Below, piece after piece: positions 5,563 to 32,242 of a stretch of DNA of 33,454 nt. The stretch's first letter is position 1, and each line of letters opens with the position of its first letter. The notes below the pieces were generated by a model. It was given only the letters and a program-made list of their open reading frames with translations, searched no databases and was not told the DNA's origin. Source of the DNA: Gammaproteobacteria bacterium (lineage in GTDB: Bacteria > Pseudomonadota > Gammaproteobacteria > SZUA-229). The DNA lies in assembly GCA_013041745.1 (NCBI GenBank), contig JABDRN010000079.1, positions 1-33,454 of the forward strand, given 5' to 3'. The translations under genes were made by a program, and so were the position numbers.

Positions 5563-6162
5563 TTACCAGCTCCACCCGCCACCATTGCCCCATGGGCTCA
5601 AACCCGATCGGTTATTGTTCCAGGGTACGCTGAAACTCGAGGCATTATTATTCCATGGGCCGGTAAAACTTGGACCGCCGTTACGGCCACCCCAGGGTCC
5701 GCTGAAGCCTGAACCCCGGTTATTCCATGGTCCATAGAAACCTGTTCGGCGGTTGTTCCATGGACCATAACTGGATCCACGATAGTATGGTCGAGTACCG
5801 TAAGCGTTAGGCATCTGATTCTGGTAATAACCACCGTACGCCGGTTGTTGTAAAGCTGGTTGTGCAGCTGGTTGTGCAGGTTGAATAGCAGTATTCTGCG
5901 CTGCATTCGAAATGGCTGTCTGCTGATTTACCTTGGCTTCAGTATTTTGAGCAGGCTGTGTTTGATTTTGTTCTGTGCTGCGTTCATCACCCAAACCGGA
6001 AAGTTGCTGGTCGATGTCCAGTGGCGGGAAATCACCGTATCCCTTGTTATATCCACCGTAGGGCTGCTTTTGAGACCAGTCGGCGTAACTGCTGGTTGTA
6101 TATAAGGCCGTCGTTAGATATCCCGCTATTTGCAGGCCTTTTATAACTGATCTTCTATTCAT
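5563..6162 (-). CDS. Tat-exported Gly/Trp/Asn-rich repeat protein; possible sulfur-globule-type envelope protein
   Basis: From the ATG at 6162 the protein has 199 residues. It begins with MNRRSVIKG and a hydrophobic stretch to TTSSYA, a twin-arginine signal peptide with a likely cleavage before DWSQ. The middle (about 55-105) is rich in Gln, Ala, Pro and Asn and looks disordered. The C-terminal third has about six repeats built on GPWNN or close variants (GPWGG, VPWNN, SPWGN) spaced 10-13 residues apart and mixed with Gly, Phe and Tyr. It ends in GGGWSW. Low-complexity Gly/aromatic-rich exported proteins coat sulfur globules in purple sulfur bacteria and related organisms, so this is a reasonable candidate in a Dsr genome. 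Those known proteins normally use Sec signals, so the assignment is tentative. A GTG at 6171 is an alternative start. Confidence 0.75.
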   Translation of the reverse strand: MNRRSVIKGLQIAGYLTTALYTTSSYADWSQKQPYGGYNKGYGDFPPLDIDQQLSGLGDERSTEQNQTQPAQNTEAKVNQQTAISNAAQNTAIQPAQPAAQPALQQPAYGGYYQNQMPNAYGTRPYYRGSSYGPWNNRRTGFYGPWNNRGSGFSGPWGGRNGGPSFTGPWNNNASSFSVPWNNNRSGLSPWGNGGGWSW

Positions 6163-6380
6163 TCGCACCACTCAAGGAAAGCTGTATATCGTGCTATAAC
6201 ATTAGCACAACTCGCCCTGCAATCAATAGAATTAGTCTTGATTGCTTTTAGCGTACCGTTTTACTATTTATTCAATCTCTCTGAATGTGTAATCCTTATC
6301 GGTGCTACAGTAGGAGCTTATAAGTGGCTTCTCTGACAGCTGTGCTCAACAGTCATACCTATCAGAGAAGTTCAGCTTAT

Positions 6381-6834: not shown

Positions 6835-9738
6835 TCAACTGAAGCCATGTCGCTGTTTGTTGTTCTCTTCCTGCTCTCTGAACTGCAGGAATCTTGGCAG
6901 GAATTTATCCCAGTCGATGATATGCGAATCCAGTTCCGGACCATCGATGCAGGCATGCTTACGCACCATCTTGCCTTCGATGGTTACCGGCACCATGCAG
7001 GCGCCGCACATGCCGGTTGCATCTACCATGATAGAGTTAAGGCTGGCCACCGTTTTCACGTCATAGCCCCTGGTCAGGTCGCTTACGGATCGCATCATCA
7101 GTGGTGGGCCAATCGTAACCACCTCGCCGATGGGGCGACCGGTTCCCGCTTTATTCTGTTCCAGCATCTGCTCAAGCGGTCCGGTGACGAAACCCTTGAC
7201 GCCGTAGCTGCCGTCGTTGGTGGCGTAGATCACATCGAGCTGTTCGCCAAACTCTGCGCGCAGTTCTTCGACCCGTTCACCGGCATCGGTCCAGAACATG
7301 ACGTCGGAGCTGCGGAAACCGGCGATGAGTGTGACATGATTGCCCAGTCGCAGGTGCTCACGCATGATGGGATAGACTGGCGGCAGGCCAACACCACCGG
7401 CGGTGAAGACGACGGTCTCGCCGTTCTCATAACGGTGCAGTACACTGGGCCTGCCCAGCGGGCCGGCGACACCCGCCAGGGCTTCGCCCACTTGCATGCG
7501 ATTGATCATCTTTGAGCTGCTGCCGAGACCCTGGATGACCAGGGTGATAGTTCCTGTTTCGCTATTCCAGTCTGCCAGGGTGAGTGGTATCAGTTCACCC
7601 TTTTCCGCCTGCAGCACACGGACAAACTGCCCCGGCCGCGCGTTCTTGGCTACCAGGGGTGCGTGTACCTCCATCTCCACGATGCCCAAACCCAGGTCGG
7701 TCTTGGCGATGATTTCCGCCCGTGCCTGTCCCTGTTTCGTATAGTGTTCCGCCCGGGCCACCAGTTCCCTGATCTCACTAGCGTTGAAGGGGACCCGCTC
7801 GTTGATCTCCTGCAGGGCAGCCTTTTTACCATCGCCCGCAGCGTTGATGGCTGTTGAACCACCCCTGGCCGCATCGCCTCCGGTATAGACGTCGTCCACG
7901 GAAGTCTCCTGACCGGTAACGATCTCGATGGTGCCCCACTTGCTGGTCTTGAGATCGGGTTCCGAATCCTTGACGATAGGATTGGTGGCGTTGCCCAGGG
8001 CCATGATCACCAGATCGGCCTCGATTGTCTCCTCGCGTCCGGTGGCAGCAGGTCGACGTCGCCCTGATGCGTCCGGCTCGCCGAGCTCCATGATGTCTAG
8101 CACCGCATGGGAGACGAAATGGTTTTTTTCATCGCCGAGGAACGCCTTGGGTGAACGCAACACTTTCAGGTCAATCTCTTCTTCGAGAGCATGATGCAGT
8201 TCCTCCACACGAGCAGGCATTTCTTCCTGGGTCCGCCGATAGACGATGCTCACCTGACCACCCAGGCGTCTGGCTGTACGGGCGGCGTCCATCGCGGTAT
8301 TGCCGCCACCGATGACGATCACATGTTTGCCCTCGGTTTCTGGCAGAGGAGTCTCCGAGCCCTGACGATGGCCCTGCATCAGGTTGACGCGGGTGAGGAA
8401 CTCATTCGCGGACATGATGCCGTTCATATGCTCACCGGGTACGTTGAGGAACTTGGGCAGACCGGCACCGGTACCGATGAAGACTTTCCAGAAGCCGGCG
8501 CGCTTGAGCGACTCGAGGGTAGCTGTTTTACCGACCACGAAATTGGTCACGAACTGCCCGCCCAATAACCGGATCTTCTCCACCACGTCGTCCACCAGCT
8601 CATTGGGCAGGCGGAACTCGGGAATACCATAGCGCAGCACGCCGCCGAGTTCGTGGAAAGCCTCGAACACGGTTACCGGAAAACCTTCCTTGGAAAGCAG
8701 GTAGGCATTGATAAGGCCGGAGGGGCCAGAACCCACCACGGCAATCGGTGGCCTGTCCGCCCTGGCCCAGGGACTGACGACCTCACCGATATCGTCAACG
8801 GCATCGGCAGACAGTTTCATACTCTGCGGCAAATACCACTCTATCTGGCCGATCTCGATCGGACGCTTGGTCTGCTTGCAGACCCCCTGGCATTGCAGTT
8901 CCTGGGGGCAGACGCGACCCGTGACATTGGGCAGGGGATTAGACTCGGTGATCACTTCCATGGCACGCCTGAAATTACCTTCACCCATAAGGCGCAGAAC
9001 CTCCGGGATATGGATCCTTACCGGGCAACCGCCCTTCGGTTCCTCCTGGTCCGGGATTTCCACACCCACCTGGCAGGGGCCGTCTTCGCATTGCTTGTCC
9101 CGCAGTACCTCTAGCCAGACCAGTAATTCCACCTCCCTGGCGCTGTAACCCAGTCCCATATAGCCAAGGTAGCCCTGGCTGACCAGGTCGAAGTCTTTGC
9201 AACGTTCAGCCGGCGGACGGATGTAGGGCGAGATACCATTCTCGGCAGGCCAGCCCTGGGACAGACCCTTGAACATGGGGTAACGATCTGTCATGTGATA
9301 ATCCAGGGCACGGACGAACTTACGCTTGTAGCCCAGAGGCACATTCCAGATGAAGCGCATGAGCACGGTGCTCATGGCGTCTTCCCGGGTCAACAGATTC
9401 CAGAAGGAGCAGATGAAATCCTTGCCCAGCTCCGGCTGCTGGAACTCCCAGGTAATCGCGTTGCTGCCTTCGGTGATGAATACCTGGTGGAAGAACTCGG
9501 GCTGTTCGTAGAGCCGTCGTTTGAGCAGGTCGATCTGCTTCTGGAACACCGCGACGTCCTCGGAGCCCTCCAGCTCATGTATGGCCTCGCTGGCGTCGGC
9601 CAGGTGCTTGCGGGTAGCCTCCATCTCTCGGTTGGCCTGGATGTAACGATCGACGTTTTCCCGATGATAAACATGACTGGGTTTGGCTGTGGTTTCACCG
9701 CTAGCGGCGCCCGGGGTTTGCTCTGAATGATCTGACAT
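6835..9738 (-). CDS. NfnB-NfnA-like fusion: NAD(P)H/ferredoxin flavoprotein oxidoreductase with N-terminal extension
   Basis: The 967-residue protein joins three parts. Residues 1-235 are a mostly helical extension that I do not recognise. Residues about 236-645 resemble the GltD/NfnB fold: a Cys-rich iron-sulfur segment (CPVRIHIPEVL from 238; Cys277, 283, 287), an FAD site VVGSGPSGL (334-342) and an NAD(P) site VIGGGNTAMDAARTARRLGG (475-494). Residues about 670-960 resemble NfnA/PyrK: RPGQFVRV near 701, GGVGLPPVYPI at 781-791, and a [2Fe-2S] site with Asp906, Cys911, Cys914 and Cys930 before DGPE. Asp plus three Cys is the ligand set known for NfnA. NfnAB couples ferredoxin to NADH and NADPH by electron bifurcation. 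Here it follows the PFOR gene by 14 bases, so it probably receives PFOR electrons. The gene is GC-richer than the surroundings. Confidence 0.85.
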   Translation of the reverse strand: MSDHSEQTPGAASGETTAKPSHVYHRENVDRYIQANREMEATRKHLADASEAIHELEGSEDVAVFQKQIDLLKRRLYEQPEFFHQVFITEGSNAITWEFQQPELGKDFICSFWNLLTREDAMSTVLMRFIWNVPLGYKRKFVRALDYHMTDRYPMFKGLSQGWPAENGISPYIRPPAERCKDFDLVSQGYLGYMGLGYSAREVELLVWLEVLRDKQCEDGPCQVGVEIPDQEEPKGGCPVRIHIPEVLRLMGEGNFRRAMEVITESNPLPNVTGRVCPQELQCQGVCKQTKRPIEIGQIEWYLPQSMKLSADAVDDIGEVVSPWARADRPPIAVVGSGPSGLINAYLLSKEGFPVTVFEAFHELGGVLRYGIPEFRLPNELVDDVVEKIRLLGGQFVTNFVVGKTATLESLKRAGFWKVFIGTGAGLPKFLNVPGEHMNGIMSANEFLTRVNLMQGHRQGSETPLPETEGKHVIVIGGGNTAMDAARTARRLGGQVSIVYRRTQEEMPARVEELHHALEEEIDLKVLRSPKAFLGDEKNHFVSHAVLDIMELGEPDASGRRRPAATGREETIEADLVIMALGNATNPIVKDSEPDLKTSKWGTIEIVTGQETSVDDVYTGGDAARGGSTAINAAGDGKKAALQEINERVPFNASEIRELVARAEHYTKQGQARAEIIAKTDLGLGIVEMEVHAPLVAKNARPGQFVRVLQAEKGELIPLTLADWNSETGTITLVIQGLGSSSKMINRMQVGEALAGVAGPLGRPSVLHRYENGETVVFTAGGVGLPPVYPIMREHLRLGNHVTLIAGFRSSDVMFWTDAGERVEELRAEFGEQLDVIYATNDGSYGVKGFVTGPLEQMLEQNKAGTGRPIGEVVTIGPPLMMRSVSDLTRGYDVKTVASLNSIMVDATGMCGACMVPVTIEGKMVRKHACIDGPELDSHIIDWDKFLPRFLQFREQEENNKQRHGFS

Positions 9739-9752
9739 GTCTGGTTTCCTGT

Positions 9753-12700
9753 TCAGCCCTGGTTGTGGAAGCGGATGATCTCAGCATCGCAGTTGTCGGC
9801 CACTTTTTTGGCACGCTGGGTCAGCTCGGGGGTGATCTCGATGTTGTCGAAGATGCCCGGAATCACCCGGCTTACCACCTTGCTTTCGCCATCGACCATC
9901 ATCGTGGTCTTTTCAAACAGCTCGCCGAGGTCCTCATAACAGGTCTTGCAATTGGTGCATTGGGCGATGTCTTCATCAGTGATCTCAACCAGGGGCTGAT
10001 CACCTGCCGGGCCGGCCTCGGCGGCGGGCGCCGCGGCAGCAGTCGGTGGCGCTACGGAGACGGAGAAGCCAGCGGCTGGCGTACCTGCAGCAGGGGCGCC
10101 GGAGGAGGCAGCCAGTTCGGCCATGCCCCGGGCGATGGAGTCGATAGAGGCTTCTCTCTCTGCGTTCGCCTGTTCGTACTTGCTACGCCATTCTTCCACC
10201 TCGTGGCTATGGCTCTGCTCCATGCGGTCGATATGCAGACCGCTCAGGTACTCCAGCATGCGCCAGTTGCGTCGCCGCTCCAGGGTGAGTGCAACCATAT
10301 CGCTGGACACCTCCATCTGGATCAGTCGCTTGCTGGCGTCTGTTGTCCAGATGAACGGGGTCTTGCCGTGACTGTCACCGGTATCCAGATCGATGTACTC
10401 ATGCAGAGGTACCAGATCTGCTTCTCCCTTGATCTTTTTGAAATGCTTCTTGAATCGGCCCTCGTTGACGCCAAAGTCTGCAGGGGTGAGGGGGATTTCC
10501 TTGAGCTGGGCCTTACCGTCTTCGTCCAGGTACTCGAGCGTGCCTGTGGTCCAGTCCTTGCCGATGTCCGGATTGCCTTCCAGGGAGAAGCGTTCTGCCA
10601 GGGTATCGCCTTTGCGCGGGTCGTGAACATACACCGGGCTCATGCGAGTATCCACTGCCAGACGAGCGTGACGGTTGCCGACATCATCACCGATGCCGTG
10701 CTCAGGCATACAGGCGGTGTAGGTATTGAACAGTGCCGGGGACTCGTTGTAGTTCAGGAATCCCATGAGGTTTTTCATGAAGTGTCCCTGCAACGCGGAG
10801 TTGGTCTGCACCACCAGCACTTTGGGGTGGAAGGCGGCGATCAGACCCAGTTCCTTGCGATCCTCGTGCTTGCCCCGGTGAGCCACACCGAAACGGGTCA
10901 GGTCCGAGTCCTGGCCTGTAAAGCTGGCGGTGGATGCCTGGCCACCGGTGTTGGAGTAGGCCCCGGTATCAAGCACCACAACCTTAAGCGGCGTTGCCGT
11001 CACTAGCAGTCGTGACAGGGCGCCGAAGCCGATGTCATAGGTGGCGCCATCACCGCCGATGGCCATTACCGCGGGCATGAGATCGAGTTCCTCACTGGAG
11101 AACTGCTGCCAGTAGAAGGTGCGGAAGAAGCCATCATGTTCCTCGGGATCATATTGATCTGACAGGTCCAGCCTGGCCGTGCGTAGGGCGGCGAAGTCGT
11201 CCGCCTCATCAGCGCTTAGTCCCTCGAAGATGCCCTTGGCGACCGGCACTGTATCCTGAAACAGGCTGTTCACCCAGGGCACGGTGTAGGGGTTGAAGGG
11301 AAAAGTGGAAGCATATACGCTACTGCAGCCGGTAGCATTGGCGATGGCGGCCCCGGATGGTCCCATCCCCGTTGGCCCGCTTTCCCATCGGTAGAGACGT
11401 TTCTCCAGGATATCGGCCGTGCGTTCCATGCGCTGGCGCCGGTTCGGGTCCAGTTCGTCCGGCTCGAAGGACTCGGCCTTGGCCTTCAGGCTGTCCAGAA
11501 GTTCCTCCAGTTCAGTGATGTGCCGACGGCGTTTCTGTTCGTGCAGTGCGCGGTTGGTGGCACTGAGCAGGCGCAGGGCGGTAACCTCGCCGCAGCCCCG
11601 GCAGGCGCCGTGGCCGCCGGTCATGGCGTAGTAGTTTTCGTGGTCCAGGATCAGCCGCTTGGTGTCACCGCCGGGCTGTATCGCGTTCTCCGTGAAGCGT
11701 TTCGCGGTATTGGGCATCTTGCTGAGGAACTGGAAACTGTTCTGCAGGGAGACCTGCGCGCCGTGATTTTGCTGCTGCACGGTGAGGGCGCCGGGACCGC
11801 AGACGTCGACACACTCGCCGCAGCCGCTGCACTTCCAGGGATCGACGTTCACCGAGTACAGACCGCCACTGCCTGGTTTTTCCTTTTCCATGACATCGAA
11901 GAAGGGCCGGGTCTTGACCACCGGGTAGACAGCCAGGGCCTCCACCAGTTTCTCGAAGCTGCGCCTCAGGGCGGGGTTGTCGATACCCATGCTCGCCACC
12001 TCATCGGCGGTGATGTCTTTGAAGGAGCGATCGTCCTTGGCGGGTAGTTTGCGGTAGGCATCGCGAATGCCGTTGGCCATGGGGTATACCTGGGCGGTCA
12101 ATAGTTCCTTCTGCTGTTCGGTCACGTCAACTTCTTTGATGGCGGTCAGTAACAGGTCGTGAATCTCGTGCACGGTATTGGGAATAGCGCCATCGGGGCA
12201 GGTTAGGGCGCACTCCATGCAGCCGGTGCAAAGGTGCGCCGTGTAACGCGGCACCGTTAGCCGGAAAAGACCCTTGTCCCTCAGGGCGGCGCTGGCCGAG
12301 GGCATAAACATGCCAACGCCGGGGATGACAGGCGCTTCGGCGATGCTTCCATCCTTGAACCGGTCGGTCATGGTCCTGGCGTAGTATTCCGCGTCGAACA
12401 TGCCGCTGGCACTGGCGCTGCCCATGGACTTCAGCATGGAGGCTGACACCTCGACACCCGGGCCGGCAGGTACCGCCGCCAACTGCTCGGCTTTGACAAA
12501 TTCCTCAGCCTGGTAATCAACGGCATGGGTGGCTTCCAGCCCTTCCTGGACCACGGCCATATTGCTCTCTACTACAACTTCACCCTTGGCGCCGAATTTT
12601 TTGGTCACCTGGGCGCGGACTTTTTCCAGGATCACGTCCACCGGGGCGCCGGATACCACTTGCTCTACCTTGCCGCAGACCGCGCCGATGAAGGCGATAC

Positions 12701-14858
12701 CCATCATGCGTATCTCCAGATCCGGTGAAGGAGCGTGCTTTTTCGCGACACCGAAAGCGTCCACCACGAACAGGCGGATGCTCTTCTCCCGGATGGTCCG
12801 GCGGACATGGGCCGGCAGTTCCTTCCAGGCCTCGAGAGGCGAACTGCCGGACTGTATGATAAGGCTACCGCCCTCGATCAGGCCCTTCAGCGGATCGGTG
12901 TGGTTGAATACTTTGTGGTCCGGTGAGACCACTACTTCTACATCCTCCAGCTCCGCGTTGGTGAGCTTGATGGTCTCGGGACTCAGGGTGATGTAATAGT
13001 TGGTCGGGGCACCGCTCTTCTCCGAGCCATACTTGGGTGCCGATTTGGAATGCATGCCTGTGACGCCAGCGAGGATGTCAGTCAGCAGCTTGCCAGTGGC
13101 GATAGTCCCGTAGCCGCCCACAGAGTGGAAGCGGATACGCAGGGCCTCGTCAGGCAGCAGTGAAGGGTTCGGCTCCAGGTCGAAGGCCATGAACTCGGTC
13201 TCGGGATAGGCTTCGCGCAAGCGTTGCTGAAGACCTGCTGTAGCCGGCGAGGGGTTCTCGTCGAAGAACTGGGAACCCAGGTAGAAAAACGGCACGTTGA
13301 GTACGTTCTCCATGTTCCTGAAGGCGGCGACCAGGTGCCGGGGTTGCAGGTCGTGGGCACCCAGGCCGAAGATGCCGGTACTGATCTTGGGGATACTCTT
13401 GATAGGCGGAATCCATTCGTGGCGGATCAGGGTGTAATTTTCGGCCGCCTTGAACATGGCCTGCGTGACCAGTGTGGTCAGGGCGGTGGTTTCAGAACGC
13501 TCCAGTATGGTAACGGCCTTCTTGCCGCTCAGGGCCGCGACCACGTCGCCTTCTGGGAAGGGCTGCAGCATCTTGATGGAGACCACGCCTACCTTCATGC
13601 CCTGGCTGCGCAGGTGCGTGGCGACCGCTTCGGCATCATCGGTGACCGACCCCAGGCCGACAATGACATAGTCGGCATCTTCAGTCATGAAGGTGCGAAC
13701 CGGCAGGTAGCGCCGTCCCGTCAGTACCGCGTACTCGTCCATGGCCTGGCGTACGAAGGTATGCACCTCATTAGCAAAGTGGGTGTGGTGGTCGACGATG
13801 CCCGCCTGGAAATCCGGCTGGTTTTGCACGCCGCCGGTGAGGCCCGGGTTGTTCACGTCGATCAATGCGGGCACGCGCTGGCGGGTGCCTTTCTCAAAGG
13901 CGTGGAGCCACTGTCGTCGCCACTGGGCATGCAGCTCCTCGGGTATCCATTGCAGACTTTCGCCGATCAGTGTGCCAGCGTTGTCGGCCTCGATGTCGTC
14001 GGCGCGGCTTTCGAGGAAGGCGCCCAGGGCTGACAGTGCGGAAGCGGGAATATCGCCTTCGTGGCGGTGCAGATACTCGCGGAGCTGAAACTCACGGCCC
14101 TTGGCACCGTAAAGCATTTCCTGTGCCATAGTCGGGCACTTGATGCGTCCGGCGGGATCGCCGAGGAACTCCTTCAAAAGCGCCGGCTCGGGCATCCGGG
14201 CTTCACTCAGCATGTGGCTGGTGGCGAAGCCATCAAGGGCATTGGTGACGGGGATTAGAGATTCGGCACTGACCTTGTAGGCAATGGCCGCCAGATCCGC
14301 TGCCTCCTGCTGGTTGCTGCCAAACAATATCGTGTAACCGGATGGTAACAGGGCGTAGATATCATCATGCCCGGCCATGACGTTGAGCGAGTGCCGCGAG
14401 ACCGAGCGCGCTGCGACCTGCAGCACGAAACCACCTATCTTCTTGCCTACGGTGACGTAGTGCGACTCGATACCGTAGAGCACTCCCTGGCTGGAGGAGG
14501 CGTTGGATACGTATTTGCCACCCGTGAGCGTCGCACCCATGGCACCGCTCTGTGCCGAGTGTTCACCTTCCGGTTCGAAGAAGAAAGGATGCTTGCCCCA
14601 GACATTGACGCCGCCTTTTGCACGCCAGGCCTCGAACATCTCGGAGATCTCGGTGGAAGGTGTTATTGGGTAGCCGATAACACCGCCGCAGACATGTCCC
14701 ATGACATGGGCGACTGCGCCATTGCCATGTATGACAGTTTCGATACCCGGATATTTACAGTTCTTTTTCGGCTTCTCGGTGTCTGCAGGCTTTGTTTTTT
14801 CCCCGCTGTCTGATGTAGATTCCACCTGGGTACTTTCTAGGCTTTCGACTTTGTTCAT
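9753..14858 (-). CDS. nifJ: Pyruvate:ferredoxin (2-oxoacid) oxidoreductase, single-chain, with C-terminal ferredoxin domain
   Basis: The 1701-residue protein is far longer than the usual single-chain PFOR (about 1170-1200). It interconverts pyruvate plus CoA with acetyl-CoA, CO2 and reduced ferredoxin in the cytoplasm. Visible parts are: an N-terminal pyrimidine-binding domain (about 37-260, with GYPITPSTE); domain II (about 385-510); a gamma-type domain (about 575-760, RFHSVGGYGTIATGKL); two 4Fe-4S motifs (Cys877/880/883/887 and Cys1010/1013/1016/1020); and a TPP domain with CRGCG (1086-1090) and GGDGATYDIGFGALSRL (1268-1284). An Ala/Pro linker (about 1587-1622) leads to a terminal domain with Cys1634, 1637, 1640 and 1690, the spacing of monocluster Desulfovibrio-type ferredoxins. 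A ribosome site GGAAG precedes the ATG. PPDK lies upstream and the Nfn-like gene downstream. Confidence 0.92.
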   Translation of the reverse strand: MNKVESLESTQVESTSDSGEKTKPADTEKPKKNCKYPGIETVIHGNGAVAHVMGHVCGGVIGYPITPSTEISEMFEAWRAKGGVNVWGKHPFFFEPEGEHSAQSGAMGATLTGGKYVSNASSSQGVLYGIESHYVTVGKKIGGFVLQVAARSVSRHSLNVMAGHDDIYALLPSGYTILFGSNQQEAADLAAIAYKVSAESLIPVTNALDGFATSHMLSEARMPEPALLKEFLGDPAGRIKCPTMAQEMLYGAKGREFQLREYLHRHEGDIPASALSALGAFLESRADDIEADNAGTLIGESLQWIPEELHAQWRRQWLHAFEKGTRQRVPALIDVNNPGLTGGVQNQPDFQAGIVDHHTHFANEVHTFVRQAMDEYAVLTGRRYLPVRTFMTEDADYVIVGLGSVTDDAEAVATHLRSQGMKVGVVSIKMLQPFPEGDVVAALSGKKAVTILERSETTALTTLVTQAMFKAAENYTLIRHEWIPPIKSIPKISTGIFGLGAHDLQPRHLVAAFRNMENVLNVPFFYLGSQFFDENPSPATAGLQQRLREAYPETEFMAFDLEPNPSLLPDEALRIRFHSVGGYGTIATGKLLTDILAGVTGMHSKSAPKYGSEKSGAPTNYYITLSPETIKLTNAELEDVEVVVSPDHKVFNHTDPLKGLIEGGSLIIQSGSSPLEAWKELPAHVRRTIREKSIRLFVVDAFGVAKKHAPSPDLEIRMMGIAFIGAVCGKVEQVVSGAPVDVILEKVRAQVTKKFGAKGEVVVESNMAVVQEGLEATHAVDYQAEEFVKAEQLAAVPAGPGVEVSASMLKSMGSASASGMFDAEYYARTMTDRFKDGSIAEAPVIPGVGMFMPSASAALRDKGLFRLTVPRYTAHLCTGCMECALTCPDGAIPNTVHEIHDLLLTAIKEVDVTEQQKELLTAQVYPMANGIRDAYRKLPAKDDRSFKDITADEVASMGIDNPALRRSFEKLVEALAVYPVVKTRPFFDVMEKEKPGSGGLYSVNVDPWKCSGCGECVDVCGPGALTVQQQNHGAQVSLQNSFQFLSKMPNTAKRFTENAIQPGGDTKRLILDHENYYAMTGGHGACRGCGEVTALRLLSATNRALHEQKRRRHITELEELLDSLKAKAESFEPDELDPNRRQRMERTADILEKRLYRWESGPTGMGPSGAAIANATGCSSVYASTFPFNPYTVPWVNSLFQDTVPVAKGIFEGLSADEADDFAALRTARLDLSDQYDPEEHDGFFRTFYWQQFSSEELDLMPAVMAIGGDGATYDIGFGALSRLLVTATPLKVVVLDTGAYSNTGGQASTASFTGQDSDLTRFGVAHRGKHEDRKELGLIAAFHPKVLVVQTNSALQGHFMKNLMGFLNYNESPALFNTYTACMPEHGIGDDVGNRHARLAVDTRMSPVYVHDPRKGDTLAERFSLEGNPDIGKDWTTGTLEYLDEDGKAQLKEIPLTPADFGVNEGRFKKHFKKIKGEADLVPLHEYIDLDTGDSHGKTPFIWTTDASKRLIQMEVSSDMVALTLERRRNWRMLEYLSGLHIDRMEQSHSHEVEEWRSKYEQANAEREASIDSIARGMAELAASSGAPAAGTPAAGFSVSVAPPTAAAAPAAEAGPAGDQPLVEITDEDIAQCTNCKTCYEDLGELFEKTTMMVDGESKVVSRVIPGIFDNIEITPELTQRAKKVADNCDAEIIRFHNQG

Positions 14859-15112: not shown

Positions 15113-17899
15113 TTACTCGATGCTATATTCTTTCTCTGTCAGCTTGGCCTGTGCAGCAGCCAGGCGGGCGATAGGGACGCGCGGAGCCGAACAGGAAACA
15201 TAATTCAGACCGACGCAGTTACAGAAGCGGATCGATTCTGGATGGCCGCCCTGTTCGCCGCAGATACCGACTTTTAGATCGGGATTGGTCTTGCGTCCCC
15301 ATTGTACCGTGATCTCCATCAGGCGGCCGACACCTTTGACATCGAGTGTTTCAAACGGATTATCCTGCAGGATATTGTTCTCTTCATACAGTGGCAGGAA
15401 TTTATTCTCGGCATCTTCACGCGAGAAAGAGAAACTTGACTGTGTCAGGTCATTGGTACCGAAGGAGAAGAACTCGGCTATCTCGGCCAGTCGACCCGCA
15501 CGCATACAGGCACGGACGACTTCTATCATGGAACCAAATTTAAACTTCAGCTTGATATCATATTGCTGTTCGACTTCTGTGTGAACCGTGTCGACGATGT
15601 CCCTGACCCAGGAAAGTTCTTTACCGGTGCAGACCTGCGGCACCATGATCTCGGGGCAGACATCGAAGCCTTCCTTGTTACATTCAGCAGCAGCTTCCAG
15701 TATCGCCCGTACCTGCATCTCGTAGATCTCGGGGTAGGTGATACCGAGACGCACACCGCGGTGCCCCAGCATCGGGTTGACCTCGAACAGTTCGCGTACT
15801 TTTATTAGCATCTGCTGCTTCTTGGCAATGGCTGATTCCACCAGCTCACGGCCGCCAGGGGCAAATGGTTTAGGCATCGCCTTGATATCAGCCTTACGTT
15901 TTAACAGGTGCAGGGTGTTCATCAGGTCATTGACACCATTCACCGTGTCTCGCAGAGCCCTGAGGTGTTCGATCTCCTGTTCCAGCTGTTTTTCATTGGG
16001 CAGGAATTCGTGGATAGGGGGATCCAGCAAACGGATGGTCACCGGGCGCGGAGCCATGACTTTAAACAGGTCTTTGAAGTCACCTCGCTGGATAGGACGT
16101 AATACATCGAGTGCTTGCTGGCGGTCTGTTTTGTCTTTTGCCAGTATCATGTCGATGACCAGGGGCAGGCGATCCTGCGCGTTAAACATGCGCTCTGTAC
16201 GGCACAGGCCGATACCCATGGCACCGTAATCAGAAGCCTGGGTAGCGGCTTCGATGGTGTCTGCATTACACATGATCTTGAGATCAGCGATCTCGTCGGC
16301 CCAGCCGAGCAGGGTACGAAGTTCATCAGAAAAGGTCGGTGGAACGGTGTCTATCTCACCGAGATAAACATTGCCGTTAGCACCATCGATGGTAATGACG
16401 TCACCCTCATGCAGCACCGTATCACCAACTTTTGCAATGTGTTTTTCGACGTCGACCTCGATGCCTTCAGCACCCGCGACACAGGGTTTACCCATGCCAC
16501 GTGCGACCACTGCAGCATGCGACGTTTTACCGCCGCGACTGGTCAGTACACCTTCCGCCGCAAAAAAGCCATGGATGTCTTCCGGTTTGGTCTCTTCACG
16601 GACCAGGATCACTTTTTCACCTTCATCTCGCGCCAGCTCGGCACTGTCGGCATCGAAAACGATGTGCCCTGAAGCCGCACCTGGAGAAGCGGGCAGACCA
16701 TGGGCGATCGGCATCTCTTTTGAATCAGGATCCAGACGCGGATGCAGCAACTGTTCCAGCTCCTCGGGATTGATGCGTAATAATGCCTGGTCGCGTGTGA
16801 TCAGGCCTTCTTTGCTCATCTCCAGCGAAGTGCGAACACGGGCGGTGGCGTTCATCTTGCCATCACGGGTCTGCAGGCAGTAGAGCACGCCATTTTCGAT
16901 GGTGTACTCGTAATCCTGTACTTCTTTATAATGATCTTCCAGGCGGTCGCGCAAGGCCACCAGCTCTTTGTACATCTGTGGCATCTCATCGGCCAGCTCG
17001 TGCACCGGTTTCGGTGTGCGGATACCGGCGACCACATCTTCACCCTGGGCATTGATCAGGAACTCGCCAAACATGACGTTTTCACCGGTGCCGGGGTTAC
17101 GGGTAAAACCGACGCCGGTGGCGCAGTTATCACCCATGTTGCCGAACACCATGGTCTGGATATTGACTGCTGTACCGTTAGCCATATCCGACGTGATCTT
17201 GAATTCGCGTCGATAATCGATGGCACGTTTCCCCATCCATGAATTGAATACGGCTTTGATGGAAAGCTGCAGCTGCTCATAGACATCTTCAGGAAATGGC
17301 TTGCCGGTTTCACCATGCACCACGTCGAGAAAAACATCACTTATCTCACGACAGTTATCAGCAGTCAGATCGGTGTCCTCGGTAATCCCCTCGCGCTTTT
17401 TGATGGCATCGAACGGTTTGTCGAATTCTTCATCGGCGATGCCGAGAGCAACTTTGCCGAACAGCTGGATGAAACGGCGGTAAGCGTCCCAGGCAAAACG
17501 TTCGTTGCCGGTCTGTTTGATCAGGCCGGGCAGGGTTTGCGAATTTAAGCCCAGGTTTAGGATGGTATCCATCATGCCGGGCATAGACAGCGCTGAACCG
17601 GAGCGCACTGACAGCAGAAGCATATTGTCAGCATCGCCAAAACCTCTGCCGGTATCCTGTTCCAGCATCTTGACCTGTTCACGTACCTGTTCCATCAGCT
17701 CAGCGGGCAGTTCACGCTTTTCGGTTTCCAGGTAACTCAGGCAGGCTTCAGTGCTGATGACGAAACCGGGCGGTACGTTAATACCGATCTGGGTCATCTC
17801 GCAGAGGTTGGCACCTTTACCGCCCAGCAGCTTTTTGTTCTTGCCGTCACCGTCTTTAAATGAATATACGTAAGATGTGGTCGTGGCACTGGCAGACAT
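15113..17899 (-). CDS. ppdK: Pyruvate, phosphate dikinase
   Basis: The 928-residue enzyme interconverts pyruvate, ATP and phosphate with PEP, AMP and PPi. The ATP-grasp part starts with GGKGANLCEMT near residue 26. The swivelling domain has LTSRGGKTSHAAVVARGMGK with the phosphorylated His461. The TIM-barrel domain ends in GICGEQGGHPESIRFC (from 878) and the catalytic Cys903 in NYVSCSAPR. It is about 50 residues longer than the well-studied 874-residue enzyme, without a missing motif. A strong ribosome site AGAGGA precedes the ATG. The gene is upstream of and codirectional with nifJ, with a 254-base gap, and divergent from pgi. Together with PFOR it could drive acetyl-CoA to PEP. Its AMP and PPi products match the adk, hppA and PPi-PFK genes nearby. 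Confidence 0.96.
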   Translation of the reverse strand: MSASATTTSYVYSFKDGDGKNKKLLGGKGANLCEMTQIGINVPPGFVISTEACLSYLETEKRELPAELMEQVREQVKMLEQDTGRGFGDADNMLLLSVRSGSALSMPGMMDTILNLGLNSQTLPGLIKQTGNERFAWDAYRRFIQLFGKVALGIADEEFDKPFDAIKKREGITEDTDLTADNCREISDVFLDVVHGETGKPFPEDVYEQLQLSIKAVFNSWMGKRAIDYRREFKITSDMANGTAVNIQTMVFGNMGDNCATGVGFTRNPGTGENVMFGEFLINAQGEDVVAGIRTPKPVHELADEMPQMYKELVALRDRLEDHYKEVQDYEYTIENGVLYCLQTRDGKMNATARVRTSLEMSKEGLITRDQALLRINPEELEQLLHPRLDPDSKEMPIAHGLPASPGAASGHIVFDADSAELARDEGEKVILVREETKPEDIHGFFAAEGVLTSRGGKTSHAAVVARGMGKPCVAGAEGIEVDVEKHIAKVGDTVLHEGDVITIDGANGNVYLGEIDTVPPTFSDELRTLLGWADEIADLKIMCNADTIEAATQASDYGAMGIGLCRTERMFNAQDRLPLVIDMILAKDKTDRQQALDVLRPIQRGDFKDLFKVMAPRPVTIRLLDPPIHEFLPNEKQLEQEIEHLRALRDTVNGVNDLMNTLHLLKRKADIKAMPKPFAPGGRELVESAIAKKQQMLIKVRELFEVNPMLGHRGVRLGITYPEIYEMQVRAILEAAAECNKEGFDVCPEIMVPQVCTGKELSWVRDIVDTVHTEVEQQYDIKLKFKFGSMIEVVRACMRAGRLAEIAEFFSFGTNDLTQSSFSFSREDAENKFLPLYEENNILQDNPFETLDVKGVGRLMEITVQWGRKTNPDLKVGICGEQGGHPESIRFCNCVGLNYVSCSAPRVPIARLAAAQAKLTEKEYSIE

Positions 17900-18028
17900 T
17901 ATTATTCCTCTTGATATTTATTATTGCATCACAATTTTGTAATGATGATTGTTAACCATATTCTGACCGGCGATGTTGACGCAGGTCAATAGCCGAGCGT
18001 GAACAGTATAGCAAACTCAATTCAGATC

Positions 18029-18049
18029 AGCTGATAGCTGATAGCTGAT
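18029..18049. repeat. Three tandem copies of AGCTGAT between ppdK and pgi
   Basis: The 7-base unit AGCTGAT occurs three times without a gap, directly preceded by a related TCAGATC. It lies in the 224-base divergent region between the ppdK and pgi starts. It may be a protein-binding or slippage-prone site. It has no demonstrated function. Confidence 0.6.
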
Positions 18050-18123
18050 TTTTATTGTTCCTGTCAGCTGTAAATCGTTTAAACTTATCAGCAATCTATT
18101 AAAATATCATCAAATACTTAATT

Positions 18124-19803
18124 ATGTCCCGGATCGCTATGTCTAATCTAACCCAATCGAACACCTGGAAAACACTCGAAGAACATTATGGGGAAATAAG
18201 CGAGTCACACATGCGTGATATGTTCGCTGAAGATCCACAGCGCTTTGAAAAATTTTCTCTGAAGCTTAACGATATCCTGTTCGACTATTCAAAGAATATC
18301 ATCGATAGCAAAACCATGGAACAACTGTACCAGCTCGCGAATGATTGTGACATGGGCCGATGGATCCAGCGGATGTTCGACGGCGAACCGATTAACCAGA
18401 CTGAACACAGAGCTGTATTACATACGGCATTAAGGAATAAGAGTGGTGAAGCCGTCATGGTTGATGGTGAAGACGTCATGCCCGCCGTGCTAGCGGTGCA
18501 ACAACGTGTGAAAAAACTGGCAGAGGCGATCCGTACACGTTCATGGCGCGGTTACTATAACCAGCCGATCACGGATGTGGTTAACATAGGTATCGGCGGC
18601 TCAAATCTCGGGCCGCTCATGGTCACCGAGGCATTAAGACCGTACTCGTTGCATGATCTTAACATTCACTATGTCTCAAATATCGATGAAAACCATATCA
18701 ATGACACCCTGGAGAAACTGAACCCGGGCACGACCTTTTTCATCATCGCATCGAAAAGTTTTACCACGCAGGATACCATGGTCAATGCTGAAACGGCACG
18801 GCAGTGGCACATAAACGCGGCCGGTGATGACCGTAATATCGATAAACATTTTTGTGCAGTCAGTTCGAATGTGAAAGCGGCTGTCGAGTTCGGCATCGAT
18901 GAAAACAATGTATTTCAGATGTGGGACTGGGTCGGCGGACGCTATTCCCTCTGGTCTGCCATCAGCCTGCCTATCGTCATCGCTATCGGACAGGAAAATT
19001 TCGATGAGCTTCTACGAGGGGCTTATGAAGCTGATGTGCATTTCAAGAATGCGCCATTAAATAAAAATATCCCGGTCACCATGGCGATGCTGGGCATCTG
19101 GTATAACAATTTTTTTGGCGCACAGGCAACAGCCGTGCTGCCTTATGATCAGCACCTTCATAAATTCCCAGCCTACATGCAGCAGGCGGATATGGAGAGT
19201 AACGGCAAGAGTGTAGATCGTCAGGGTCAGGTCGTCGATTACTCTACTGGACCTGTGTTGTTCGGAGAGATCGGTATCTCTGGGCAACATGCTTTTTTTC
19301 AGCTGCTGCACCAGGGCACAAAACTGGTTCCGGCCGATATACTGGCGCCGGTATCGAATATAAAATGCATCGCCAGGCATCACCGGGCCCTGATGTCTAA
19401 TGTTTTTGCCCAGGCCGAAGCCTTGATGAAGGGAAGGACAGAGGAAGAAGCCTATGCTGAACTGGTGGCAGCAGGAATGGATGAGGGTGAGATCAAAGCA
19501 CTGCTGCCAAACAAGATTTTTACCGGTAACCGTCCAACCAGTACCTTCTTGTTCAATAGCTTGAGCCCTGCAACACTGGGTTCACTGATAGCCCTTTATG
19601 AACATAAGATCTTTGTTCAGGGTATCATCTGGAATATCAATTCTTTCGATCAGTGGGGTGTCGAACTAGGGAAAAAGCTGGCGTCAGGGATATTGCAGGA
19701 ACTGGATGATAACGAACCTACACTCAGTCATGACAGTTCGACCAATGGGCTGATCAACTATTACAAAGAGTTGCGATTAAAGAATAAAGGTGAGTCAGCC
19801 TGA
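18124..19803 (+). CDS. pgi: Glucose-6-phosphate isomerase
   Basis: The 559-residue enzyme interconverts glucose-6-phosphate and fructose-6-phosphate. Diagnostic segments are NIGIGGSNLGP near residue 156, SKSFTTQDTMVNAETAR (about 210-226), the active-site segment FPAYMQQADMESNGKSVDRQ near residue 350, and GQHAFFQLLHQGT near residue 387. The length is that of the long bacterial form (about 549 in E. coli). The ATG at 18124 gives the longest frame, but an ATG five codons later (18139) is equally plausible because neither has a strong ribosome site. The gene is alone on the plus strand, divergent from ppdK and convergent with hppA. It connects the zwf/pgl branch with the fructose-6-phosphate handled by PPi-PFK. 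A strong terminator follows. Confidence 0.96.
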   Translation: MSRIAMSNLTQSNTWKTLEEHYGEISESHMRDMFAEDPQRFEKFSLKLNDILFDYSKNIIDSKTMEQLYQLANDCDMGRWIQRMFDGEPINQTEHRAVLHTALRNKSGEAVMVDGEDVMPAVLAVQQRVKKLAEAIRTRSWRGYYNQPITDVVNIGIGGSNLGPLMVTEALRPYSLHDLNIHYVSNIDENHINDTLEKLNPGTTFFIIASKSFTTQDTMVNAETARQWHINAAGDDRNIDKHFCAVSSNVKAAVEFGIDENNVFQMWDWVGGRYSLWSAISLPIVIAIGQENFDELLRGAYEADVHFKNAPLNKNIPVTMAMLGIWYNNFFGAQATAVLPYDQHLHKFPAYMQQADMESNGKSVDRQGQVVDYSTGPVLFGEIGISGQHAFFQLLHQGTKLVPADILAPVSNIKCIARHHRALMSNVFAQAEALMKGRTEEEAYAELVAAGMDEGEIKALLPNKIFTGNRPTSTFLFNSLSPATLGSLIALYEHKIFVQGIIWNINSFDQWGVELGKKLASGILQELDDNEPTLSHDSSTNGLINYYKELRLKNKGESA

Positions 19804-19853
19804 TCGGCATATAACAGTCTCTGTGCTGATAAAGATTCTAGATATTTTACAGT

Positions 19854-19895
19854 CACAAAAAAAGCCGGGGCAAAAGTGCCCCGGCTTTTTTTGTG
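19854..19895. terminator. Bidirectional intrinsic terminator between pgi and hppA
   Basis: A 19-base perfect stem (19854-19872 with 19877-19895) closes on an AAAG tetraloop. The GC-rich core GCCGGGGCA is flanked by an A7 tract on one side and a T7 tract on the other. It works as a textbook hairpin for both convergent genes. Confidence 0.95.
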
Positions 19896-19916
19896 TGTAA
19901 TGTTAGCAAGTAACAA

Positions 19917-21935
19917 TTACAGCAGTGGCACCATCATCAAGGCAACGATATTGATGATCTTGATCAATGGATTGATCGCAGGACCCGCAGTGTCTTTGTA
20001 AGGATCGCCTACGGTATCACCGGTAACCGCTGCTTTGTGGGCATCGGAACCTTTACCGCCATGATTTCCATCTTCGATGTATTTCTTGGCGTTATCCCAG
20101 GCACCACCACCAGTGGTCATAGAGATAGCGACGAACAGACCGGTAACGATGGTACCGATCAGCATACCACCTAGCGCCTGTGCGCCCAGAGTCAGACCGA
20201 CGACGACTGGAACAGCGATAGGCAATAATGATGGAATCATCATCTCTTTGATCGCAGCTTTTGTCAGCATGTCGACAGCCTTGGAGTAATCAGGTTTCTC
20301 TGATTTATCCATGATACCTGGCATCTCCTTGAACTGGCGGCGAACCTCGTTAACGATACCGCCGGCAGCACGACCAACAGCTTCCATCGCCATGGCACCG
20401 AACAGGTAAGGGATCAGGCCGCCAATGAACAGGCCGATGATGACCATGTGGTTCGACAGATCAAATGACATGGCCATGCCAGCAGCGTTCAGCGTGTTGG
20501 TGTAATCGGCAAACAGTACCAGTGTTGCCAGGCCGGCAGAACCGATGGCGTAACCCTTGGTGACGGCCTTGGTGGTATTACCAACAGCGTCGAGTGCATC
20601 GGTGGTATTGCGTACGTCTTCTGGAAGTTCAGCCATCTCCGCAACACCACCGGCGTTATCAGTGATCGGACCGTAAGCGTCCAGAGCGACGATGATACCA
20701 GTCATAGACAGCATGGCAGTGGCAGCGATAGCGATACCGTACAGGCCTGCCAGTTCATAGGCGCCCCAGATAGAGGCACAAACTGCTAAAACGGGTGCAG
20801 CAGTCGATTTCATCGAGATGCCAAGACCAGCGATGACATTTGTGCCGTCACCCGTAGTCGATGCAGCAGCGATGCGTCTCACTGGGCCGAATTCTGTTGC
20901 TGTGTAATACTCAGTGATACCGATCATGGCAACGGTCAGACCAAGGCCGATGAGTGCTGAGAAGAACAGGTTGATAGATTCATAACCTTCGAGACCTGAC
21001 ATCATGTGTTCAGTAACGAAATAGAAAGCAATGGCAGAGAGAATCGCTGATATCAATGTGCCTTTGTAGAGCGCATTCATGATCTTGGCGCCATCTTTTG
21101 TTTTCACGAAGAATGTACCGATGATCGATGTTACGATCGATATACCGCCCAGCATCAACGGGTAGGTGACTGCCAGTTCGCCGGCATCTTTCAGTAACAG
21201 GCCACCGAGCAACATGGTAGCAACCAGTGTTACCGCATAGGTTTCGAACAGGTCGGCCGCCATACCGGCACAGTCACCGACATTATCGCCGACATTGTCA
21301 GCGATTACTGCAGGGTTACGAGGATCATCTTCCGGAATGCCTGCTTCAACTTTACCGACGATATCGGCACCGACATCGGCGCCCTTGGTAAAGATACCAC
21401 CGCCGAGACGAGCGAATATAGAGATCAGTGAACCACCGAAAGCCAGGCCAACCAAGGCGTGCAGGGCTTCATTCATATCCATGCCCATAGCCATCAGGAT
21501 ACCGTAGTAACCGGCAACGCCTAAAAGGGCGAGACCAACGACTAACATACCGGTGATAGCACCGCCTTTGAAGGCGATATCTAATGCCGGTGCGATACCT
21601 GTTCGTGCTGCTTCTGCGGTACGTGAATTAGCACGAACAGAAACGTTCATACCGATGAAACCCGCGAGGCCAGAGAAGATCGCACCGATGGCAAAGCCCA
21701 TGGCAGTCGTGGTATCCAGTGCAAACATGACGACCAGGTATACGATGACGCCGACCGCAGCGATCGCAGTATACTGACGTTTCAGATAAGCCTGGGCGCC
21801 TTCCTGGATAGCGCTCTGTATACGTACCATTTCTTCATTACCCATGGGTTTTGAAAGTACGTTGAAAATCGTAAAGACACCATAACCTATCCCGAGAAAG
21901 GAACAGGCCAGTGCGATGAGTAGTTCAGTAGACAT
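19917..21935 (-). CDS. hppA: K+-independent-type H+-translocating membrane pyrophosphatase
   Basis: The 672-residue integral membrane protein has the many hydrophobic segments of the membrane pyrophosphatase family. It hydrolyses PPi to pump H+ across the inner membrane, or can work in reverse. Catalytic acidic motifs are intact: [20 protein letters not shown] (187-206), then [19 protein letters not shown] (213-231), [17 protein letters not shown] (426-442) and [20 protein letters not shown] near the C-terminus. In GNTTKAVT (452-459) the positions that separate subtypes carry Lys456 and Thr459. This is the pattern of K+-independent proton pumps, whereas K+-dependent enzymes have Ala and Gly. 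A GGAG ribosome site precedes the ATG. It sits between pgi and adk near PPi-PFK and ppdK, all linked by PPi. Confidence 0.96.
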
Positions 21936-21980
21936 TATTTAAGACTCCGTATAAAAATTACAATATTTATTATCGATAAT

Positions 21981-22007
21981 CAAAAGCCCTGCTTAACAGG
22001 GCTTTTG
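21981..22007 (-). terminator. Intrinsic terminator after adk
   Basis: The arms CAAAAGCCCTG (21981-21991) and CAGGGCTTTTG (21997-22007) pair perfectly around a 5-base loop. The hairpin lies 12 bases past the adk stop and 45 bases upstream of the hppA start. It should separate the two genes, although the T run is partly inside the stem. Confidence 0.75.
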
Positions 22008-22019
22008 ATGATTTTATAT

Positions 22020-22688
<669 letters not shown>

Positions 22689-22702
22689 TTATTATCGTTA
22701 GC

Positions 22703-22746
22703 AAAAAAATGCCTGTCGCGATTAAGCAGAACAGGCATTCTTTTTT
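22703..22746 (-). terminator. Intrinsic terminator overlapping the stop of the 68-residue gene
   Basis: AATGCCTGT (22708-22716) pairs with ACAGGCATT (22731-22739) around a 14-base loop, with A and T runs outside the stem. On the minus strand it lies immediately at the stop codon of the small gene at 22745-22951 and ahead of adk, so it would separate the two. Confidence 0.7.
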
Positions 22747-22951
22747 AACTTTTAAAGGCACTTTCGAATTTCGTGCCCGGTTTTATTTCCCATTGCTTTT
22801 CCAGGTCATACTCTCGAATCAGCGAATCGACCGCAGCCTGTCCGTGGTCGCGCATGACTTCCCCCAGGACCATCCTGGCGGCATTACGGTTGTAGCCACT
22901 GCCAAGGCTGGAGTGCATGGCGATCAATTCACGTGCTTTTTCGAGAGTCAT
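22745..22951 (-). CDS. Small conserved-looking hypothetical protein
   Basis: The 68-residue soluble protein has no recognised domain. It reads as two or three helices: MTLEKARELIAMHSSLGSGY, then NRNAARMVLGEVMRDHG, then QAAVDSLIREYDLEKQWEI, with a basic C-terminal tail. There is no Cys, no signal peptide and no membrane segment. It begins 19 bases after the PPi-PFK stop, on the same strand, and ends in its own terminator. It is therefore likely the second gene of a pfp operon. The amphipathic helices and regular codon use make it credible as a real gene. A regulatory or assembly role for PFK is possible but unsupported. Confidence 0.65.
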   Translation of the reverse strand: MTLEKARELIAMHSSLGSGYNRNAARMVLGEVMRDHGQAAVDSLIREYDLEKQWEIKPGTKFESAFKS

Positions 22952-22970
22952 GGGATTTTATTTCAAGCTC

Positions 22971-24236: not shown

Positions 24237-24282
24237 AATGTTCCTCGAAATAATTAATAAATGGATTATCTTGAATAGGGTT

Positions 24283-24645
24283 TTATTGGTTGCTGTTTTC
24301 TTTTTCTTCTCGCAAATCTGTTTCTTTATCGGCATGAACCTGTAACAAGGTTGTAACGCAGTCTGTGATGTCATCGAACTCTGCTTTTCCGGTGCCGTAT
24401 TGCTGAAAGCCCTTGTAGTAGAATTGACTGCGATATGTGCGTTCGCCGACTTTGACCAGGACGAAGCTGGTATCGCCTACCTGCCAGAATAATGCCGGGC
24501 ATGTCGTCAGCTCGCGGTCATGTGGCATCAGTTTGATTTCAACATCTGCCAGTTGCAAGTCGATGTCCTGACCGGGCCAGCGCTCTTTCAATGTCGTGCT
24601 GACAGCCCAGTGTTCTGTATCAGTTATATCTTTAATCGTTGACAT
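24283..24645 (-). CDS. Hypothetical soluble protein
   Basis: The 120-residue protein belongs to no family I recognise. It is soluble and mixed alpha/beta in character. The core reads CPALFWQVGDTSFVLVKVGE followed by RTYRSQFYYKGFQQYGTGKAEF, which suggests an antiparallel sheet. An acidic helix follows, and the tail is charged (DKETDLREEKENSNQ). Cys residues at about 64 and 100 are not in a metal-binding spacing. It lies 46 bases upstream of pfp on the same strand and could be cotranscribed with it. A stem-loop upstream separates it from slyD. Function is unknown. Confidence 0.65.
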   Translation of the reverse strand: MSTIKDITDTEHWAVSTTLKERWPGQDIDLQLADVEIKLMPHDRELTTCPALFWQVGDTSFVLVKVGERTYRSQFYYKGFQQYGTGKAEFDDITDCVTTLLQVHADKETDLREEKENSNQ

Positions 24646-30922: not shown

Positions 30923-30968
30923 AGTTACAGGTTACAGGAGAAAGTAGGTAAAAAAAACTCATAACTAA

Positions 30969-31006
30969 AAAGGTCGCCCTCGTGTATAAACACAAGGGCG
31001 ACCTTT
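30969..31006 (-). terminator. Strong stem-loop between dsrP and dsrN
   Basis: Arms 30969-30984 and 30991-31006 pair over 16 positions with one C-A mismatch, around a 6-base loop, with AAAGGTCGCCC on the left. On the minus strand it follows the dsrP stop by about 18 bases and is followed by a short T run. It should end or reduce the dsr transcript before dsrN. Confidence 0.8.
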
Positions 31007-31023
31007 ATAGTTGATCTTATATT

Positions 31024-32229: not shown

Positions 32230-32242
32230 TATTACTCTCTAA

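Follow-up and report, generated by a model that had tools for sequence, protein, structure and literature searches.

What does a bacterium gain from a pyruvate:ferredoxin oxidoreductase (PFOR) whose gene is followed at once by a single gene for both halves of an NfnAB-type flavoprotein? The question is raised by a contig of 33,454 nucleotides from a gammaproteobacterium of the GTDB lineage SZUA-229 (JABDRN010000079.1, assembly GCA_013041745.1), which was analyzed over its full length and is called the window below. We consider it very probable that the fused Nfn is the dedicated electron partner of the PFOR. The full explanation, a single PFOR-Nfn machine with a ferredoxin tethered to the PFOR, is the one we favor with moderate confidence. 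It is built on four observations: the gene pair, its conservation, the ferredoxin character of the PFOR tail and the Nfn signatures of the fusion.

A conserved two-gene unit

Both genes lie on the reverse strand. The PFOR-like open reading frame (ORF) occupies 9753-14858 (1701 aa) and the NfnB-NfnA fusion 6835-9738 (967 aa), with 14 nt (9739-9752) between the PFOR stop and the fusion gene. Pfam domains POR_N, PFOR_II, POR, ferredoxin and TPP were found in the first product and Fer4_20, Pyr_redox_2, NAD_binding_1 and DHODB_Fe-S_bind in the second, in agreement with a preliminary description of the locus, which had reported a PFOR gene and a one-protein fusion of NfnB-like and NfnA-like halves 14 bases apart. 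Reading frames, domains and conservation are all concordant, which excludes an artifact of gene prediction.

A scan of GTDB genomes found 303 relatives, and the best 80 loci were fetched. A PFOR homolog lies directly upstream of the fusion, on the same strand, in 76 of these 80; coming from the closest relatives, this count describes the present family and not all fused Nfn. The pair is present in five lineages (gamma-, beta- and alphaproteobacteria, Magnetococcales and Actinomycetota). The exceptions are one short contig and three loci of Candidatus Thiosymbion, and whole-genome searches found both genes on different contigs in the three Thiosymbion genomes (L060, L063 and L065), the PFOR being 69-71% identical to that of the window. 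This is a natural unlinking, in which the Nfn fusion has gone from the PFOR operon while both genes are retained. Of the 72 readable junctions, 54 show a 4-nt overlap between the PFOR stop and the fusion start; the 14-nt gap of the window is therefore not a special feature.

Among 54 genomes of the order, the fusion occurs in 5, all of which, and no others, also encode the long PFOR. Two phylum samples of about 400 genomes gave an identical set of nine genomes for the two genes, eight of them from a single Magnetococcales genus. The PFOR and Nfn distance matrices are strongly correlated (Mantel r = 0.91 for 46 pairs, a value reached in 0 of 999 permutations), as expected for genes that are co-inherited or co-transferred. 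Chance adjacency is excluded by the upstream position of PFOR and by the joint occurrence in the same nine genomes. The pair, whose absence from related genomes had been named in the preliminary description as grounds for giving up its idea, is thus a widely conserved, translationally coupled two-gene unit. Plasmid-borne copies were looked for and none was found.

Two PFOR-Nfn pairs were seen in genome G006 (Proteobacteria bacterium C4.bin.7; L066 and L069, with PFORs 70% and 63% identical to that of the window) and likewise in the metagenome-assembled genome (MAG) SJ731 (L089 and L091). Double pairs in one MAG could be real or come from mixed bins; no duplication of fused nfn was seen by Liang et al. 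2019 (PMC6405883). Another pair, in L130, has a further cluster some 3 kb beyond it on the downstream side (L130:14053-20676), in which genes for a NuoF-like protein, KorA and KorB are followed by an ORF of at least 613 aa, which has no Pfam match and a 29% alignment to the PFOR beta/C-extension region. This cluster perhaps encodes a 2-oxoacid oxidoreductase that is linked to NADH and in which the PFOR part has degenerated.

The long PFOR and its C-terminal tail

The PFOR of the window shares with PFOR/NifJ proteins (D. africanus, M. thermoacetica; TIGR02176) the domain order, the thiamine diphosphate (THDP) domains, the ligand sets of three [4Fe-4S] clusters and a conserved pyruvate-site region. 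All 12 Cys of the three core clusters have aligned counterparts in NifJ and recur in 65 of 65 relatives, which together with the THDP domains places the protein in the PFOR superfamily. It differs from NifJ in being about 500 aa longer, through inserts in the core (about residues 250-325, 901-995 and 1101-1150) and a C-terminal extension with a tether and a ferredoxin domain for a fourth cluster. It also falls below the cut-off of the PFOR equivalog model TIGR02176 (384 against 911 bits), as do its relatives (378-421 bits).

The preliminary description had pointed to the PFOR tail, and this proved well aimed. An AlphaFold2 model of the last 300 aa has a confident tail domain and a disordered linker. 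In 61 relatives the tether measures 33-50 aa and consists of 58% Ala, Pro and Gly, against 24% in the whole window PFOR, and block 1601-1625 shows 27% conservation. While the linker drifts, Cys 1634, 1637, 1640 and 1690 of the tail are kept in 64-65 of 65 relatives; the motif of L120 is lost through an apparent frameshift in its contig. Against the PDB, a tail profile matched Hydrogenobacter thermophilus ferredoxin 1 best, in both of its entries (E = 4e-4). Foldseek matched the tail to 7m1n/7m1o with a probability of 1.00 (E = 0.016), and its only high-probability matches were single-cluster ferredoxins; the weak E-values reflect the small size of the domain. The CxxCxxC...C motif and the fold of a single-cluster ferredoxin are thus both present, supported by the profile, the model and the tail of the sister protein described below, and the tail is missing from three aligned NifJ proteins. 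From these comparisons and the model we read the tail as a putative ferredoxin on a flexible arm.

A second type of long PFOR (1639-1648 aa, 36-46% identity over aligned parts) was found in genomes of the same order, and also outside it within the phylum, with the same core Cys and the same kind of tail. The sequence match of this sister tail is a Desulfovibrio-type ferredoxin (E = 2e-7), ferredoxin I of D. africanus, the protein being named by its PDB entry. The flanking DNA was long enough to show the context of the sister PFOR in six loci (L152-L156 and L087). In all six the sister PFOR directly follows an rnfB-like gene, with rnfC-like and other rnf-like genes next wherever the downstream side was readable. 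Family models identified rnfC, rnfD, rnfE and rnfA in L155, rnfC in L087 and rnfB-like genes in L087, L153, L154 and L155; in a seventh locus (L041) the end of an rnfB-like gene lies upstream of the sister PFOR. In L087 the two operons are adjacent, the rnf-type operon beginning a few hundred bases after the PFOR-Nfn pair. Tailed PFORs therefore seem to be paired with either of two dedicated ferredoxin:NAD(P) modules, Nfn or Rnf, and nothing else argues as strongly for a role of the tail in passing electrons to a dedicated partner.

No description of a PFOR that has a ferredoxin fused to it and stands next to Nfn or within an rnf operon was found in the literature searched, which left most subscription papers outside its coverage, and because of this incomplete coverage the novelty of the tethered ferredoxin and of the Nfn/Rnf alternation is likely, not certain. 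Likely to be new are the PFOR with its tethered ferredoxin, the sister protein within rnf operons and an invariant Cys-to-Asp change in the fused Nfn.

The fused Nfn

The fusion itself is already known. It matches NCBIfam NF009415 (PRK12779) over residues 27-966 with 1672.4 bits, against a cut-off of 1519, and corresponds to the uncharacterized 'Pattern C' of Actinobacteria, Alpha- and Gammaproteobacteria (Liang et al. 2019, PMC6405883), with which it shares family, NfnB-NfnA order and about 200 aa of additional length, without a difference at the protein level. PFOR is listed among nfn neighbors in the legend of Figure 2 of that work, and the text does not discuss it. What is added to Pattern C here is the fixed pairing with a tailed PFOR, the N-terminal domain and an Asp at the distal cluster. 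The long PFOR with its linker and ferredoxin-like tail, the helical N-terminus of about 210 aa and this Asp also go beyond the preliminary description.

The NfnB half scored 358.6 bits to 5jca_L (NfnI) against 215 to GltD chains, and the NfnA half 233.7 bits to 5jca_S (NfnI) against 112.2 to the Xfn small subunit. Foldseek TM-scores normalized to the NfnI chains were 0.85 for the NfnB half (L chain) and 0.90 for the NfnA half. By these sequence and model comparisons both halves group with NfnI, and not with glutamate synthase or Xfn. The fusion has in common with NfnAB (Pattern A: C. kluyveri, T. maritima, P. furiosus NfnI) the two halves NfnB and NfnA, the folds for FAD and NAD(P)H, a proximal cluster with Glu and a [2Fe-2S] site of Asp and three Cys. 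The fusion differs from NfnAB in being a single chain with NfnB before NfnA, in its extra N-terminal 210 aa or so, in the Asp at distal Cys1, in a Cys3-Cys4 spacing of 15 and in its PFOR partner.

The split of ligands between the two [4Fe-4S] clusters follows what is generally known of the DPD/Nfn fold. Ligands were assigned by the motifs of Liang et al. 2019 (PMC6405883). The proximal-cluster motif GRVCPQExQCx3C...Gx2E is present as GRVCPQELQCQGVC...GQIE, with 9 rather than 13 residues after the last Cys and EW for ER; its C277, C283, C287 and E300 are invariant in 53 relatives, as are the proximal ligands C238, C277, C283 and E300. In the NfnA half the reference motif D(G)TGMCGxC...C appears as DATGMCGAC-x15-C930, with x15 instead of x10. 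The Asp plus three Cys pattern of the preliminary description is thus present, and D906, C911, C914 and C930, together with T720 (Thr at FAD N5), are invariant in the same 53 relatives. The distal cluster, on the ferredoxin side, departs from its motif RCx2Cx4Cx3CPV: T. maritima NfnB has RCLQCPTHPCVSGCPV and the fusion has RDKQCEDGPCx15CPV, with Asp at the first Cys position in 80 of 80 relatives. A carboxylate-ligated distal cluster beside the ferredoxin docking side is likely, and such ligation could shift the potential to suit the tethered ferredoxin, or offer protection against oxygen. The replacement of this Cys bars a straight transfer of NfnAB energetics to the fusion.

No credible match was found in a domain search of the N-terminal 237 aa of the fusion, and no second protein with its N-terminal domain occurs among the fetched loci. 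We suggest, from co-occurrence, that this domain might dock the PFOR. A PHROGs scan of a C-terminal stretch of the fusion was empty and uninformative.

Features of the PFOR-Nfn pair and its upstream neighbor in the window
Feature	Positions	Strand	Basis and remarks
PFOR core, residues 1-1424: THDP domains, CoA/gamma domain, 2x[4Fe-4S] ferredoxin domain, beta domain	10587..14858	-	Pfam; PDB PFOR alignments
PFOR internal two-cluster ferredoxin domain (C877, C880, C883, C887; C1010, C1013, C1016, C1020), split by an insert of ~100 aa	11784..12254	-	
PFOR C-terminal extension, residues 1425-1584, ending in a helix of ~45 residues	10107..10586	-	AlphaFold2, pLDDT mostly >90; aligns poorly to NifJ
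Ala/Pro/Gly-rich tether, residues 1585-1622, length and sequence varying among relatives	9993..10106	-	pLDDT <50
Single-cluster ferredoxin-like tail domain (C1634, C1637, C1640, C1690)	9756..9986	-	Cys conservation, profile, model, Foldseek
Fusion N-terminal helical domain, residues 1-212	9103..9738	-	No Pfam match; all-helical model; within PRK12779 coverage; not in NfnAB
NfnB (GltD-like) half: two [4Fe-4S] motifs, FAD and NADP(H) Rossmann folds	7801..9102	-	phmmer 5jca_L 5.8e-106; Foldseek
Distal-cluster motif R-D214-x2-C217-x4-C222-x15-C238-PV	9025..9099	-	D214 at position of first NfnB Cys
NfnA (PyrK-like) half: FAD and NAD(H) domains	6838..7731	-	phmmer 5jca_S 3e-68; Foldseek
[2Fe-2S] ligands D906/C911/C914/C930 of the NfnA half	7023-6949	-	
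Pyruvate phosphate dikinase (PPDK)	15113..17899	-	TIGR01828, 1272 bits; upstream of PFOR, own intergenic region of ~250 nt

Proposed electron route and direction of the reaction

The two genes would encode one electron-transfer machine that links pyruvate to the NAD(P)H pools. The long PFOR would interconvert pyruvate plus CoA and acetyl-CoA plus CO2, and low-potential electrons would move between its three core [4Fe-4S] clusters and the ferredoxin domain tethered at its C-terminus. The flexible Ala/Pro-rich arm would allow this domain to reach the dedicated fused Nfn, which would join ferredoxin electrons to NADPH in the NfnB half and to NADH in the NfnA half, most likely by flavin-based bifurcation/confurcation. 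Joining the PFOR reaction with the Nfn reaction (PMC6405883) gives the net equation pyruvate + CoA + NADH + 2 NADP+ <-> acetyl-CoA + CO2 + NAD+ + 2 NADPH. PFOR and Nfn are probably in physical contact, with transfer by a swinging arm, and passage of the electrons through the tethered ferredoxin is fairly probable. Such an arm would be a redox counterpart of the lipoyl swinging arms of pyruvate dehydrogenase. Tentatively, and with slightly less than even confidence, we propose a class of PFOR with a built-in swinging-arm ferredoxin, which would feed an interchangeable fused bifurcating Nfn or ion-pumping Rnf and bypass the common ferredoxin pool.

A simpler linkage has to be weighed. The pyruvate:NADP+ oxidoreductase (PNO) of Euglena and Cryptosporidium carries a P450-reductase-type domain fused to PFOR. 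The pair of the window likewise joins PFOR to a dedicated NADP-reactive flavoprotein and differs from PNO in its tethered ferredoxin and separate Nfn. The fused Nfn might then be a plain, non-bifurcating ferredoxin:NAD(P) oxidoreductase, which would turn the two proteins into a bacterial pyruvate:NADP+ (or NAD+) oxidoreductase, functionally analogous to the Euglena enzyme. The invariant distal Asp and the longer Cys3-Cys4 spacing fit such a role, and Liang et al. 2019 (PMC6405883) warned that sequence cannot separate bifurcating from non-bifurcating homologs. However, a simple reductase would not need a whole NfnA half, and both flavin halves, the Asp and three Cys of the [2Fe-2S] site and the proximal Glu are all invariant, which makes this alternative rather unlikely. 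The interpretation given in the preliminary description is supported in part. As to bifurcation, the fused Nfn retains the signatures of L-FAD/S-FAD, NAD(P)H, the proximal cluster and [2Fe-2S], whereas its distal motif is altered. With Asp in all 80 relatives, bifurcation is likely but unproven, and we lean slightly towards true bifurcation.

The other alternative keeps a bifurcating fused Nfn that is only co-expressed with PFOR, both using a soluble ferredoxin pool, and takes the tail for a structural element or an extra cluster without a special role. The unlinked genes of the Thiosymbion genomes favor it, although the retention of both genes there counts for the single machine, and conventional NifJ PFORs do use soluble ferredoxin. 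On the other hand, the four tail Cys are nearly invariant despite the drift of the linker, and the tail is found in the two types of long PFOR, which both have a ferredoxin:NAD(P) module as neighbor, but in none of the three NifJ proteins aligned. We regard this alternative as unlikely.

Several points weigh against the tethered machine. The ferredoxin score of the tail lies under the Pfam gathering cut-off and its Foldseek E-value is 0.016. Pyruvate as substrate depends on aligned residues, the PFOR being below the TIGR02176 cut-off. The invariant distal Asp could alter the low-potential branch. The AlphaFold model of the fusion is of moderate quality overall (mean pLDDT 76), with low confidence in the NfnB cluster loops, which places cofactor distances beyond judgment. 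The whole case is made from sequence and models.

A comparable arrangement has been described in propionibacteria, where PFOR and its Nfn-like neighbors were proposed to form one complex with energy coupling (PMC7650540). That case, likened here by its description, has separate GltD-like and DHODH-like genes flanking PFOR and quinol as the proposed donor. The PFOR-Nfn pair with tail and fusion was found in a Propionibacterium MAG (L132).

The direction of the reaction is about evenly balanced, and so is our judgment on whether the source organism uses the unit mainly for pyruvate synthesis. Its genome also codes for RuBisCO, AceE, RnfC and a conventional NifJ of 1226 aa. PPDK lies 5' of PFOR also in L037, L038, L057 and L069 and not in other lineages; it is a neighbor in close relatives only, outside the core PFOR-Nfn pair. 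A gene resembling phosphoenolpyruvate (PEP) synthase, named by its N-terminal sequence, lies near the rnf-type operon in L154 and L155. These neighbors favor pyruvate synthesis followed by PEP formation, and the adjacency of PPDK favors it in the source lineage. Work on Kentron (PMC6593406) likewise assigns PFOR to the carboxylation of acetyl-CoA and discusses it as a pyruvate synthase by which thiotrophic symbionts fix CO2. The opposite use, mainly oxidation of pyruvate under anoxia to yield NADPH, for example for polyhydroxyalkanoate (PHA) synthesis, falls just short of an even balance in our estimate. Homologs occur in PHA-cycling or fermentative lineages (Accumulibacter, Propionivibrio, Propionibacterium, Actinotalea), which speak against one fixed direction; fermentative growth of P. 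freudenreichii was crippled by PFOR knockout (PMC7650540), and Nfn is exergonic in the direction of 2 NADPH (PMC6405883).

FNR/FixK-like boxes (TTGATNNNNATCAA, at most one mismatch) were found upstream of PFOR in 15 of 64 relatives, against 1.1 expected from shuffles (L068, L070, L082-L084, L090, L092, L095, L097, L100, L101, L106-L108 and L119). They are confined to three related groups, Rhodopseudomonas, Rhodoferax-like and Rhodopila, where they suggest use without oxygen and also support pyruvate oxidation. No such box was found upstream of the PFOR of the window, where the best site has three mismatches. The label 'aerobic-type' in the preliminary description needs care in view of these relatives.

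Upstream of the pair, positions 15113-24374 of the window hold PPDK, glucose-6-phosphate isomerase, a membrane pyrophosphatase, adenylate kinase and a pyrophosphate-dependent phosphofructokinase, a neighborhood of pyrophosphate-based glycolysis/gluconeogenesis. The end of a dsr operon occupies 29519-33402, where a CobB/CfbB-like a,c-diamide synthase (29519-30922) comes directly after genes for an NrfD-like protein (31024-32229) and DsrO (32243-33013). On the other side of the pair, 5563-6171 encodes a Gly/Asn/Pro/Trp-rich protein with GPWNNN repeats, a signal-like N-terminus and no Pfam match.

If the tethered machine is right, it would show how facultative and partly aerobic proteobacteria can use ferredoxin without losing low-potential electrons, by means of a carrier that is bound to PFOR and serves a private partner. 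The uncharacterized Pattern C Nfn would gain a function, and the presence of PFOR inside some rnf operons a reason. The pair would also offer a defined two-gene system for testing substrate-like channeling of electrons, and it bears on the fixation of CO2 into pyruvate by thiotrophic symbionts and PHA-storing bacteria.

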